A DNA stretch of 20,072 nucleotides. It comes from a virus. Every line of letters begins with the position of its first letter. The stretch's first letter is position 1. The stretch covers positions 1-20,072 of IMG/VR virus record IMGVR_UViG_3300021962_000846, one strand, 5' to 3'. Both the position numbers and the translations under genes were made by a program. Below the pieces are notes generated by a model. That model was not told the origin of the DNA. It worked only from the letters and a program-made list of their open reading frames with translations, and searched no databases. Shown here one piece after another: positions 12,698-19,777 of this stretch.

Positions 12698-13245
12698 TGA
12701 AAGATTTACTAGACGATGAGCGCATCAAAATAGCGGTTTTAGCTTTTATCGCTGGAGTAATTTTAGCTTTTATTGTATTCCCAAAAAGGGAACTCGAAAC
12801 GGTTTACAAAACTACTATTGAGCGATTGACTGATACTCTATACATCACCTCCAGCGATACGGTTTACATTCCTAAAACAAAGATAAAAACGGAAGTTTTA
12901 AGGGATACGATACTAATGGATTTTAAGCCTAAAATTAGCCAGTTTAACGCATCCTTTCCTTTCGATCATGGAAGTACAAGCGTGAGCGGTGAAGTACTCG
13001 GAGAAGTCCTAAAAATGACCGCTATAAACGATTATAAATTGCCCGTGGTTACCAACACGATTATCGAGACCAAAACAGAAACAATAATAAAAAAGAGCAA
13101 AGGATTATATTTAGGTGCAAATGTCAATTCTGTGTTAAATCTAGGTGCATCTGCTTCCTATGTAGACCATAAATATATCTTTCAATACCAATACCAGCCT
13201 ATACAGAAAGTGCATCAGATTGGAGTAAGTAAAAAGTTATTTTAA
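12694..13245 (+). CDS. Membrane-anchored periplasmic protein, candidate spanin
   Basis: The 183-aa protein has an N-terminal membrane span (about residues 11-29, IKIAVLAFIAGVILAFIVF) after a short charged cytoplasmic end, so the rest should lie in the periplasm. The middle is Thr/Ile-rich (ERLTDTLYITSSDTVYIPKT, TNTIIETKTETIIKK). The last 48 residues look like two to four amphipathic beta strands and finish with Phe (VSKKLF), similar to the end of an outer-membrane barrel. Position at the end of the lysis cassette and the topology suggest a spanin that links inner and outer membranes. No lipobox partner gene is visible. The function is inference. Confidence 0.5.
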   Translation: MMKDLLDDERIKIAVLAFIAGVILAFIVFPKRELETVYKTTIERLTDTLYITSSDTVYIPKTKIKTEVLRDTILMDFKPKISQFNASFPFDHGSTSVSGEVLGEVLKMTAINDYKLPVVTNTIIETKTETIIKKSKGLYLGANVNSVLNLGASASYVDHKYIFQYQYQPIQKVHQIGVSKKLF

Positions 13246-13257
13246 TCTATAGGTATC

Positions 13258-13284
13258 GTAACAAATAGTATATGGATTTGTTAC
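13258..13284. repeat. Perfect 9-bp inverted repeat at the convergent junction
   Basis: GTAACAAAT (13258-13266) and ATTTGTTAC (13276-13284) flank a 9-nt spacer. There is no T run after it on either strand, so a terminator role is doubtful; a protein-binding site or an RNA hairpin at the end of the late transcript are alternatives. Confidence 0.7.
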
Positions 13285-13337
13285 AACTGTAGACAAACTG
13301 GCAACAATTCGGATAATTTCCGATAAGGTTAAAGATA

Positions 13338-13377
13338 TTTTACAAAATTGGCAGCTTTTGTAAAAAGTGCCGTTTTA
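13338..13377. terminator. Probable bidirectional terminator between convergent modules
   Basis: GGCA-G-CTTTT (13350-13358 plus one bulged G) pairs with AAAAGTGCC (13363-13371) around a 3-nt loop. It is followed by GTTTTAT on the plus strand and AATTTTG on the minus strand. It sits where the plus-strand lysis genes and minus-strand early genes meet. The same bases also form a second perfect pairing, TTTTACAAAA (13338-13347) / TTTTGTAAAA (13356-13365), with an 8-nt spacer. Some minus-strand coding bases (the stop) lie at its right edge. Confidence 0.5.
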
Positions 13378-15826: not shown

Positions 15827-16365
15827 TTTTTTAAGTTTTTTTGTTCTTCAATTTTTATGTGACATCGTTTACAAACAGATATTAATTCATAAAGTGGTTC
15901 ATCATAAATATTATTATAAGTTAAATGATGTACTTCTTGAGCTGGATTTGTAAGACAAGCTTGGCATAAGTAATTATCTCTTTCTAAAACCTTTTTTCTT
16001 TTATTATTCCATTTGTCTGAATTTAGGTATTCATTGTATCTGTCCCAAGCTTCATCATTTTTGATTCTGTGCAAATCCATAATAACCTTTTTATAGAATT
16101 CATCCTTTAGATATCTTAAATCCTTGTTAAATTCCTTTAAATCATCAAAGTTTTCTACCAATGATCTTTTTAAATCCATTGATAATTCTCCGCAACAGAA
16201 ACATTGTTTCCTTAAATTTTGAATGCCATCTTGCCTGGTAAACTTTACAAACTGCATATCATGAGATAAACATTCTATTTCAACTACTGCATACTTGTAT
16301 CCTTTATCACCTTTGTAATAATATTTTGCTATTACATTGTTCGATTTATGATTAATGTAATTCAT
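15823..16365 (-). CDS. HNH endonuclease
   Basis: The 180-aa protein ends in a clear HNH domain: YLNSDKWNNKRKKVLERDNYLCQAC is the entry, with C134 and C137 as the first zinc pair, then EVHHLTY (H146/H147) and LISVCKRCH with C165 and C168 as the second pair and H169. The N-terminal part contains a QCFCCGEL cluster (C55, C57, C58), which may hold another metal. It starts by ATGA overlap with the primase stop, so it is translated with the replication protein. Free-standing HNH genes in phages may be homing nucleases or processing enzymes; tight operon packing favours a working early gene over a recent insertion. Confidence 0.85.
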   Translation of the reverse strand: MNYINHKSNNVIAKYYYKGDKGYKYAVVEIECLSHDMQFVKFTRQDGIQNLRKQCFCCGELSMDLKRSLVENFDDLKEFNKDLRYLKDEFYKKVIMDLHRIKNDEAWDRYNEYLNSDKWNNKRKKVLERDNYLCQACLTNPAQEVHHLTYNNIYDEPLYELISVCKRCHIKIEEQKNLKK

Positions 16366-18569
16366 TTTTTTAAGTGTTTATAAATCGTTGTCCTACTCAC
16401 ATTTAGCATTTCAGCAAGCTCTGATCTATTGAAGTCAGGAACTGCTTCCTGTATCTGCTGTATTTTTCTTTCAATCGTCTCATTTTTCAATGAACGAACC
16501 AACTCACTCAATTCGCCTGTTTCCAATGAATTTACCTTAATCTTCTTTGACATTGCAATAAAGTAATTACTTAATTTCTCAGCCTTAAGCAAACTATCCT
16601 TGCTAATCCAATCAAATCCTTTGCCTTCGTTATAAGCAGTAATCGAGTTAATTATCAGCGCAAATCTAGGGATGTAAGCTTTCTGCTTACTCAACATTGA
16701 CTTCACATACTCAGAAATATCGTCTGAGTTCTGCATATCTGTGATGTTGTTAAAGATTCGCTCCCATTCTTTTTCAGCCTCAGAGTCAAACTTAATTATC
16801 CTAGACTCAATGTCTCCAAACTTATTCAACTGCAAGATTTCTTTTCGAATCAGGTTATAGAACTGAGACATATAAGCCTCGTACCAATCCAAAACCTCCT
16901 GCTCAATCGCATTTCTGTTGTAATGCTCAATCTCCTTATCAGGATAGCAAACTAGCAATCTGTCTAGAAATCCATTGTCCTTGTTTTCCAAAGTAGAAAT
17001 CTGAGAGAAGATTCCAGGTTGTATACCACCAAGTACAGGAATCAAAGGCGACTGAATAAAGCTACTCTTTGCAGTTTTTCTTGTTAGAATCGCTTGCTGA
17101 TTAGACCAACATGAGAGCCAGAATTCCAAGTCAGATCCAGGCTTGTACTTATTCATATCCTTAATCCATCCGTTCAGCTCATCCTTAAATACTGCAATGC
17201 CTACTTCGTTTTCCTCGTGGAGATCCGCCAACGCTTCGACCGTTACATCGTTAACAATAATCTGCTTTCTAATTGGCTCCTTAATTTCCTCTACATCCTT
17301 TTTATCCTTAGAACTTAGCTTCTCGTATTCTTTGTACTTCTTGTATTCGTTCTGGTAGTGCTTAATCTCAAAACTATTTTTCTTAGCTAATGGAAATATA
17401 ACCGCATTTATACTAGGGGTTTTTCCTAGACCTGCTTTGCCAATTAAACCTAGCCAAATGTTTACTGACTCCCTCCATCCAGTTTTTACCTCCACCTTGC
17501 AAGCATTTCCAATGCAAATTGAAATGTACCAAAGTAAACTGCAACCCATGTAGTCTATAGAATGGTTTAGAGTTTTTTGATTTAACAGAATATAATTCTG
17601 CAATGACTCAGGGAACACTTCAATCGGAAATATTAACTCCTCCTTTGGTATCTCAATTCGCTCAATCTCTACCTTTCTAATTTTTCGTTCTCCATAGCCA
17701 GCCTTGTATAATTCCTTTGCAGCTTCGGAGTAATTTCCACCAAAGAACTTCCAAGAGTAGATAGCAAACGGACTAAGCGGAGTCTCGTGAGGATAGATCG
17801 TAGCAGTGGTAAATATGTAGCATAATCCACTATCCTTGTAAATAAATCCGTGCAATGCATCCTTGCTTCCATTCTTGCGTAGAACTACGCGATCAGATAG
17901 GTGCTTAATGGCACTAAATTCGCCCTGTAAGAGGTCTATAGCCTTGTTCCTATAGTTGTAGTCATCCCAAGGTGTAAGACCGCTGTAATCGGCTTCTTTT
18001 GGCTTCGTTTCATCTACCTTCTCTTCGTAGTGAAAGTACTTGCATAGATTCATTAACAAATCGCGTTCTTCAACTGTGATTTCTTGAATTTCCTCATAAG
18101 ACAAATCGCTTACTTGGTGATCGTAGATGTAGATGTATCCGCCTGTGCCTCTAGTCTCAATCAGAGCTTGAGAATGTCCCTTCAGAGTAGCTAGCTTTCT
18201 GTTTCCTTCTACCTTTTCGCAACGGTAGATAATATGGTATCCAGAGTTTACTGTCTTGTAGATTACAAACTTCCTAGCAAAGTCATCGATGTAGTCAGAT
18301 ACAAATGCAATGAACTCATTCCAGAATTTCTTACCCTCTTGTACACTAGGAAAAACTTTTAGGTCTATGTCTATACATTCAGTACCATAAAATCCTGTAA
18401 TAATACCATAACCTTTAGTTTTAGACTCTAGCCTTTCTAACTCTGCTTTTTCTATCTTTTTTGTCTGGTATTCCTTCCATAAAATGAGCGGTTTTTTGCC
18501 TTCTGATATGGGCATTACGCTAAATCCAGCGTTAAGTAAATTGATTGCTCTTCCTAAAGTGACGTTCAT
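16362..18569 (-). CDS. Primase-polymerase / DUF3987 helicase-like replication protein
   Basis: The 735-aa protein combines two replication domains. Residues about 1-165 match the bifunctional Prim-Pol domain: IDID (D67, D69), SGYHIIYR (S109, H112) and ETRGTGGYIY (R140). Residues about 320-690 fit DUF3987, with Walker A GKAGLGKT at 377-384, followed by KDELNGW and a long helical part. The last 25 residues form an HTH (RSELAEMLNVSRTTIYKHLKK). It should prime and unwind DNA at the phage origin. ATG 18569 follows the 305-bp repeat region that is a candidate origin and promoter. The fusion of primase and helicase parts is usual for this group; the C-terminal HTH may bind the origin. Confidence 0.87.
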   Translation of the reverse strand: MNVTLGRAINLLNAGFSVMPISEGKKPLILWKEYQTKKIEKAELERLESKTKGYGIITGFYGTECIDIDLKVFPSVQEGKKFWNEFIAFVSDYIDDFARKFVIYKTVNSGYHIIYRCEKVEGNRKLATLKGHSQALIETRGTGGYIYIYDHQVSDLSYEEIQEITVEERDLLMNLCKYFHYEEKVDETKPKEADYSGLTPWDDYNYRNKAIDLLQGEFSAIKHLSDRVVLRKNGSKDALHGFIYKDSGLCYIFTTATIYPHETPLSPFAIYSWKFFGGNYSEAAKELYKAGYGERKIRKVEIERIEIPKEELIFPIEVFPESLQNYILLNQKTLNHSIDYMGCSLLWYISICIGNACKVEVKTGWRESVNIWLGLIGKAGLGKTPSINAVIFPLAKKNSFEIKHYQNEYKKYKEYEKLSSKDKKDVEEIKEPIRKQIIVNDVTVEALADLHEENEVGIAVFKDELNGWIKDMNKYKPGSDLEFWLSCWSNQQAILTRKTAKSSFIQSPLIPVLGGIQPGIFSQISTLENKDNGFLDRLLVCYPDKEIEHYNRNAIEQEVLDWYEAYMSQFYNLIRKEILQLNKFGDIESRIIKFDSEAEKEWERIFNNITDMQNSDDISEYVKSMLSKQKAYIPRFALIINSITAYNEGKGFDWISKDSLLKAEKLSNYFIAMSKKIKVNSLETGELSELVRSLKNETIERKIQQIQEAVPDFNRSELAEMLNVSRTTIYKHLKK

Positions 18570-18594
18570 GTGATTTTACAAAGTTTTGAAAAAT

Positions 18595-18611
18595 ATGGGG
18601 GGGGGAGGGGT
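18595..18611 (+). repeat. G-tract motif copy 3 (TAT-G9-A-G4-T)
   Basis: Nine G (18597-18605), A, four G (18607-18610), then T. It lies 28 nt before the primase ATG, in the leader of the minus-strand gene. It is the longest tract and deviates by A in place of T between the two G runs. Confidence 0.7.
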
Positions 18612-18624
18612 ATTTTTTGGCTAA

Positions 18625-18668
18625 AAGTGTACACTAAGTTTACACTAAGTTTACACTGAGTGTAAACC
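18625..18668. repeat. 11-bp repeat array 1 (four units)
   Basis: Units in exact 11-bp register: AAGTGTACACT (18625-18635), AAGTTTACACT (18636-18646), AAGTTTACACT (18647-18657) and a diverged GAGTGTAAACC (18658-18668). The core GTKTACAC is palindromic or nearly so. A period of 11 bp puts all sites on about the same face of the helix. Confidence 0.85.
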
Positions 18669-18722
18669 CCTAAAACCCTTCATACGTTATAATTTGACCG
18701 ATTTTTGGCACTTTTTTGGCTT

Positions 18723-18822
18723 AGGTTTACAAGTTTACACTTTTTTTCGTAATGTATTTTTTTTTACCTACTGAAAATTTATTTTTTTTCATTTTTACCA
18801 AAAAGTGTTCAAAGTGTTCACT
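18723..18822. repeat. Scattered repeat cores between the arrays
   Basis: GTTTACA occurs at 18725-18731 and again within AAGTTTACACT at 18731-18741. AAGTGTTCA (18803-18811) is followed by AAGTGTTCACT (18812-18822), a variant with TTCAC in place of TACAC. The cores sit on both sides of the T-tract segment. Confidence 0.65.
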
Positions 18823-18854
18823 TATTGCGTTTGGAGCCAATAGAGGCCGATTTT

Positions 18855-18895
18855 GGTTTACACTTAGTGTACACTTAGTGTACACTTGTGTACAC
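18855..18895. repeat. 11-bp repeat array 2 (four units)
   Basis: Cores GTTTACAC (18856-18863), GTGTACAC (18867-18874), GTGTACAC (18878-18885) and GTGTACAC (18888-18895), spaced 11, 11 and 10 bp. The last cores overlap the final codons of the three-HTH gene, where they encode VYTSVH. It mirrors array 1 about 190 bp away. Confidence 0.85.
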
Positions 18896-19567: not shown

Positions 19568-19777
19568 CTAGGGGGGGGTGGGGTCTGTAATTTCCACTAT
19601 CTCTTTTAGTTGATTCCAAACTGATTCTGCATTCTCTCCCCAGTAATATTCGCACTTACCCTCTTTGATCGGTGCCGAAATAAAATAAGATTGATACTCA
19701 CATGGCTTCGCCGTAAACCGGTAGCAACTTTCTTTCTGGGAACAATCTGTCCCTGGGCACATCGTTATGTCTGGCAT
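19568..19777 (-). CDS. Cys-rich small protein B (tandem paralogue)
   Basis: The 69-aa protein has Cys at 7, 12, 18, 26 and 42 in MPDITMCPGTDCSQKESCYRF. It matches its upstream neighbour at C7, C12, C18, YRF, YFI, P and C42, so the two are tandem paralogues. The C-x4-C-x5-C plus a distant Cys could bind zinc or an Fe-S cluster. The C-terminus (TDPTPP and stop) is encoded by a G8/G4 tract on the plus strand; a change in tract length would alter the end of the protein. It starts 13 nt inside its neighbour. The function is unknown. Confidence 0.65.
   Translation of the reverse strand: MPDITMCPGTDCSQKESCYRFTAKPCEYQSYFISAPIKEGKCEYYWGENAESVWNQLKEIVEITDPTPP
19569..19584 (+). repeat. G-tract motif copy 4 (TA-G8-T-G4-T)
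   Basis: Eight G (19571-19578), T, four G (19580-19583), then T. On the minus strand it encodes the last Pro codons of the Cys-rich protein B and touches its TAG stop. It is the nearest match to copy 1 (one extra G). Confidence 0.75.

Follow-up and report, generated by a model that had tools for sequence, protein, structure and literature searches.

A 269-bp region of clustered short repeats located beside the primase-helicase gene (positions 18627-18895) is very probably the replication origin of the phage studied here. Comparison of sequences across ~90 phages revealed that the repeats and the helix-turn-helix (HTH) tail of the primase-helicase change together, suggesting that the repeats are most likely what this protein reads to locate its own origin. 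The window analyzed is a complete IMG/VR record of 20,072 bp that probably represents a phage fragment, and all of the contigs with which it was compared are metagenomic, none with a known host.

Organization of the repeat region

Exact copies of the core sequence (GTGTACAC, GTGTAAAC/GTTTACAC) appear nine times in the 20-kb window, and all nine fall within these 269 bp. In dinucleotide shuffles of the window we found a mean of 0.73 exact cores per window (maximum 5), with at most two of them within 280 bp. These results confirm the two four-core arrays in 10-11 bp steps reported in a first-pass annotation of this DNA. The cores of array 1 start at 18627, 18638, 18649 and 18660, in steps of 11 bp, with the fourth core reversed (GTGTAAAC on the plus strand), and those of array 2 start at 18856, 18867, 18878 and 18888 (steps of 11, 11 and 10 bp). 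The additional cores that had been described around a central T-rich stretch were also recovered: an exact core at 18733-18740 and its one-mismatch neighbor at 18725-18732 lie on one side of this stretch (here 18741-18804), and two weaker cores, at 18805-18812 and at 18814-18821 (GTGAACAC), lie on the other. As was also noted then, array 2 extends into the three-HTH gene, whose 3' end contains the last two cores.

Beyond what the first-pass annotation described, array 2 repeats array 1 in inverted orientation (91% complementary over 33 nt), and the whole element is approximately mirror-symmetric about its AT-rich center, with the site clusters following a 4-2-AT-2-4 order on the primase strand (Table 1). 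The region has the sequence layout of an iteron origin, with regular repeats beside a putative initiator gene and an AT-rich segment.

Table 1. Coordinates of the repeat region and its flanking genes in the window
Feature	Position	Strand	Description
Primase-helicase, 735 aa	16362..18569	-	Prim-Pol (9-148), DUF3987 AAA+ helicase-like (338-676), C-terminal HTH (702-735)
C-terminal HTH of primase-helicase	16365..16475	-	Residues 699-735; proposed iteron reader
Recognition helix of this HTH	16368-16394	-	Residues 726-734
Proximal array B (array 1)	18627..18667		Four cores, 11-bp steps; just ahead of primase start
Inner tandem pair P2	18725..18740		GTGTAAAC / TTGTAAAC on primase-sense strand
AT-rich center	18741..18804		T-tracts on plus strand; putative strand-opening segment
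Inner tandem pair P1	18805..18821		GTGAACAC / TTGAACAC on primase-sense strand; weak cores, kept in clade
Distal array A (array 2)	18856..18895		Four ~8-bp cores GTKTACAC, 10-11-bp steps; overlaps last codons of three-HTH gene
Three-HTH protein, 151 aa	18875..19330	-	Upstream of array; conserved clade neighbor, not likely the reader; possible regulator

Both genes flanking the arrays are encoded on the minus strand, and array B is separated from the start of the primase-helicase gene by 57 bp. The Pfam domains of the primase-helicase are Prim-Pol, DUF3987 (E = 2e-54) and, at the very C-terminus, HTH_11; both Pfam and the predicted fold place its primase in the Prim-Pol (AEP) type rather than the Toprim (DnaG-like) type. 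A search for solved structures related to the protein by sequence returned nothing significant. In AlphaFold2 models the Prim-Pol domain matched the Prim-Pol of pRN1 best (1rni, 3m1m), and the helicase part was poorly modelled, at low confidence. The C-terminal 151 residues, modelled alone, formed a confident tri-helical HTH (pLDDT 88), for which Foldseek retrieved only weak local matches to short HTHs (for example Lrp/AsnC and SETMAR).

A turn in GC skew near 18.7 kb, which the first-pass annotation had expected of an origin, was not observed: no turn was found at the arrays, either in the window or in four contigs of 36-39 kb. In all of these the skew tracks the coding strand, and it therefore says nothing either way about the origin. 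The turn in the window is at ~13.2 kb, where genes converge; the sign changes at 13245-13375, the boundary between the structural genes on the plus strand and the replication block on the minus strand.

Conservation of the arrays among related phages

Close relatives with the same primase had been named in advance as the place where the arrays should recur, and arrays were indeed present in every relative examined. In about 66 contigs with primases 81-100% identical, the same sites are kept at near-constant distances. Among 23 non-redundant regions, sequence entropy was 0.10 bits inside the 12 sites and 0.39 bits outside them (p = 1e-8). Each of the 10 records of 24-37 kb that were scanned, which as contigs may be incomplete, has the pattern just once. 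Across this clade the primase has practically the same recognition helix (SRTTIYKH), and the three-HTH proteins of its two subclades share just 52-61% identity.

More distant phages, with primases at 44-80% identity, also carry arrays, but these are built of other cores: TGTAAACC in L078 and L261, GTGTWACC in L259, GTGTAAAA in L083, TTGCAAAA in L204, L205 and L207, GTGTGCAA in L262, and GTGTAAAR in L263. Four clusters within ~240-300 bp were found in all 12 lineages checked, down to 44% identity, and in 11 of the 12 the most AT-rich 50 bp fall between clusters 2 and 3.

A scan with L262 added 80 loci to the comparison. A de novo search close to the primase gene, reaching a few hundred bases from it, detected arrays in 77 of 90 loci; the other 13 had none in the first search windows, including L205, whose array was already known. 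For each of the other 12 we predicted the core from the recognition helix and then scanned the locus, and all 12 contained a dense cluster of 7-15 copies in 300 bp. Mononucleotide shuffles of these loci reached maxima of 2-5 copies, the weakest case being L348 (7 versus 5). An array is therefore present in every locus examined.

Co-variation of the cores with the C-terminal HTH of the primase

The cores vary strongly between lineages, and they track the primase HTH rather than the body of the protein. The primases of L078 and L207, for example, are 82% identical over residues 1-670 and 42% identical over the HTH. In L078 both the HTH (64%) and the cores resemble those of the window, whereas the HTH of L207 resembles those of L204 and L205 (64-67%), with TTTTGCAA cores common to all three. 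Similarly, L262 combines the helix SRRTIQNY with GTGTGCAA, and L280, 88% identical to it overall, combines TRNTIQRY with GTGTAACA.

The lineages compared are related, and the tests that follow correct for kinship only in part. A partial Mantel test on eight lineages gave a modest p of 0.012. For each of 613 columns of the primase we computed a partial correlation between residue identity and register-free core similarity, with overall identity removed, in 44 lineages below 90% identity. Of the 10 best columns, six (727, 734, 731, 728, 726 and 716) fall within the HTH, which spans 31 columns (hypergeometric p = 1.9e-6), and the joint score of recognition-helix positions 726, 727, 728 and 731 was reached by none of 2000 permutations; no single HTH column passed the family-wise 0.05 threshold, with column 727 at 0.06. 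The column ranking first in this test is residue 418 (17316-17318, minus strand), a near-invariant Leu of the helicase domain, far from the HTH; a handful of aberrant lineages may have produced this rank artefactually.

Position 727 separates two classes of cores. All nine lineages with Arg727 have TG[AC][AC] cores, and 33 of the 35 without it have TA[AC][AC] cores (Fisher's exact test, p = 1.4e-8, with L295 counted as not-TG); the two exceptions are L302, in which Ser727 and a TG core break the rule, and L295, which is unclassed. On a tree of the protein body with the HTH left out, residue and core each require eight changes. In six independent pairs on supported branches nearly all changes went in the same direction and none in the opposite one (sign test, p = 0.03 to 0.06). 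Since the register of the cores is ambiguous between lineages, we do not claim a base-by-base code for all positions.

In a separate case, L316 and L321, the primase bodies are 99% identical, the HTHs are 68% identical, the cores are similar (GTGTAAC) and the array lies directly downstream; judged by these sequences, the C-terminal segment was replaced recently.

The C-terminal HTH of the Prim-Pol/DUF3987 primase-helicase is thus the best-supported candidate and most likely the reader of the cores. The three-HTH protein, proposed as the binder in the first-pass annotation, probably does not read the cores: a search of L083's 39-kb record detected no relative, no gene of its type lies beside the arrays of L262 and L263, and core sequence tracks the primase HTH instead. 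The earlier view of the region as an iteron origin beside a Prim-Pol/helicase gene hence finds good support in the comparison with relatives, whereas the skew turn and the three-HTH binder that had accompanied it do not.

It is also conceivable, though we regard it as unlikely, that another binder opens the origin, be it the three-HTH protein or some host factor, and that the primase joins later through protein contact. In this phage group HTH genes are indeed common near the primase, and L205 and L207 encode small stand-alone HTH proteins between array and primase (L205:2690-3004 and L207:4795-5004) whose recognition helices (SKRSVYYYIK and SRRTVYNYID) are almost like that of the primase on the same contig. 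However, neighboring HTH genes differ or are absent while the arrays persist, and it is the residues of the primase HTH that predict the cores. A host factor fits poorly with cores that differ among phages of one family, and as for DnaA, the window contains no exact DnaA-type box, with one-mismatch matches, some of them near the region, below the number expected by chance. The small HTH proteins of L205 and L207 are possibly competitors or regulators of the initiator.

We find it very unlikely that the arrays serve solely as an operator and have no function as an origin, with a phage regulator, either the three-HTH protein or the primase, controlling transcription of the primase gene from them. 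In the window such a role would agree with array B lying just ahead of the primase start, with the adjacent three-HTH gene, which is conserved in the clade, and with the 10-11 bp steps, which suit stacked regulators. Across the family, however, the position of the array relative to the primase varies, which argues against a simple primase operator: it is upstream in 34 of the 77 loci with de novo arrays and downstream in 43 (in L263 it overlaps the last codons of the gene), and the 12 clusters found with predicted cores lie anywhere from beside the primase start to ~1300 bp upstream. The pure operator that the first-pass annotation offered as its alternative is therefore weakened, since in many cases the array follows the primase gene or has other DNA between itself and the gene; the patchy occurrence of the three-HTH gene and the tracking of the primase HTH by the cores also speak against it.

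Proposed mechanism of origin recognition

We consider it highly likely that 18627-18895 is an origin that is bound, opened and primed by the adjacent primase-helicase via its C-terminal HTH. From the computed anatomy, conservation, uniqueness and co-variation of the arrays we infer physical binding, strand opening and initiation, as well as a two-sided assembly and autoregulation, as follows. The C-terminal HTH would bind the four iteron clusters, and the copies bound on either side of the AT-rich center would assemble into helicase rings that open the AT-rich DNA, after which the Prim-Pol domain of the same protein would lay the first primers. In the clade of the window, the location of array B just before the primase start suggests that the initiator probably represses its own gene.

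A more tentative reading, which we consider possible but somewhat less than even in likelihood, is that these primase-helicases are a widespread family that repeatedly re-targets its own origin. Helix and core would then change together, often among phages that are otherwise nearly identical, through exchange of HTH and array (as a contiguous cassette where the array is downstream) under pressure to differ from co-infecting relatives or parasites. If so, these phages would hold a natural, readable residue-to-base code for origin recognition, with Arg727, for example, specifying G.

For a large group of uncultured phages, whose helicase family (DUF3987) is so far a helicase by prediction only (PMC5862659), the primase-helicase and its arrays provide a proposed initiator and origin, and the related loci offer many natural pairs of initiator and origin that differ in specificity. 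The recognition code, incompatibility between co-infecting phages and the two-sided logic of the origin can all be tested with small proteins and short DNAs.

Comparison with known replication origins

The most economical reading of the region is an origin like that of P4 alpha or SaPI Rep, but of a separate variety. P4 alpha unites primase, helicase and winged helix in one polypeptide, with the winged helix binding the origin repeats (PMC4234260), and the phage protein likewise joins primase, helicase and a C-terminal DNA-binding HTH. The primase of P4 alpha is of the Toprim type (PMC4234260), whereas that of the phage is an archaeo-eukaryotic Prim-Pol coupled to a DUF3987 helicase. As to the SF3 helicase of the P4-alpha type, the phage protein shows a DUF3987 match, in a helicase part that is modelled at low confidence. 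P4 also has a second iteron locus, crr, unlike the single cluster seen in each of the 10 possibly incomplete records.

In SaPI Rep and SCCmec Cch2 the C-terminal domain of the helicase recognizes iterons beside its own gene, and the SaPI origin is downstream of that gene (PMC7581432). The phages studied here resemble SaPI in having a probable iteron origin near the helicase gene, in many relatives likewise downstream, and the strong core/HTH co-variation would fit recognition by the C-terminal domain as in SaPI Rep. SaPI Rep and Cch2 have no fused Prim-Pol, unlike the phage protein, and the SaPI origin lies directly downstream, whereas the arrays of the window are upstream and the family is mixed.

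Iterons that adjoin an AT-rich region and are served by a phage initiator also occur in lambdoid phages, in which the O protein acts on ori-lambda (PMC7466680). The lambda iterons, however, are located inside the O gene, and O is not known to have primase or helicase activity, unlike the fused protein described here. Lambda O is a separate initiator that loads the host DnaB, and lambdoid relatives have type-specific initiator-origin pairs. Iteron plasmid origins differ in carrying DnaA boxes, no exact copy of which is present in the window.

The ORF904 protein of pRN1 resembles the phage protein in fusing a Prim-Pol to a helicase and a C-terminal winged helix, but the origin proposed for pRN1 is a stem-loop of 100 nt that lacks iterons and follows the gene (PMC4234260), whereas iterons are present in all 12 lineages checked here. 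That the inverted arrays extrude a large stem-loop whose shape is recognized by the Prim-Pol/helicase, as in pRN1, is highly improbable. In its favor, the strand forms a much more stable fold than its shuffles do (z = -7.2), the two outer arrays are paired in 9 of the 12 lineages, and the Prim-Pol domain has its closest structural match in ORF904. Against it, the outer arrays are unpaired in the other three lineages, the folding is a trivial result of one motif in both orientations, and exact cores, 10-11-bp steps and helix co-variation better fit a reading of bases in duplex DNA. Large hairpins can form because the motif is present in both orientations, and a structural role of the element is possible.

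Other features of the locus and its relatives

Beside the arrays the full Bacteroidota-type promoter motif (TTG...TAnnTTTG) was not found, a sigma-70 promoter scan gave matches at chance level, and an Rfam search gave no match. Two scans of cellular genomes found no prophage relatives, no cultured relative with the same primase was found above ~31% identity, and the DUF3987 proteins of plasmids are distant. A Flavobacterium-like host is a weak guess, made because the best phage match of a tail protein is in Flavobacterium phage 11b (26% identity).

Long G-runs lie in or beside intergenic gaps at 18597-18610 (nine G followed by AGGGG) and 19571-19583 (eight G followed by TGGGG); on the primase strand the first reads as a run of C lying between array B and the start of the primase gene, and it occurs in some relatives but not in others. 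In two relatives the primase gene encodes a shorter product (L031, 683 aa) or has an early stop (L022, 487 aa), in loci that are otherwise normal.
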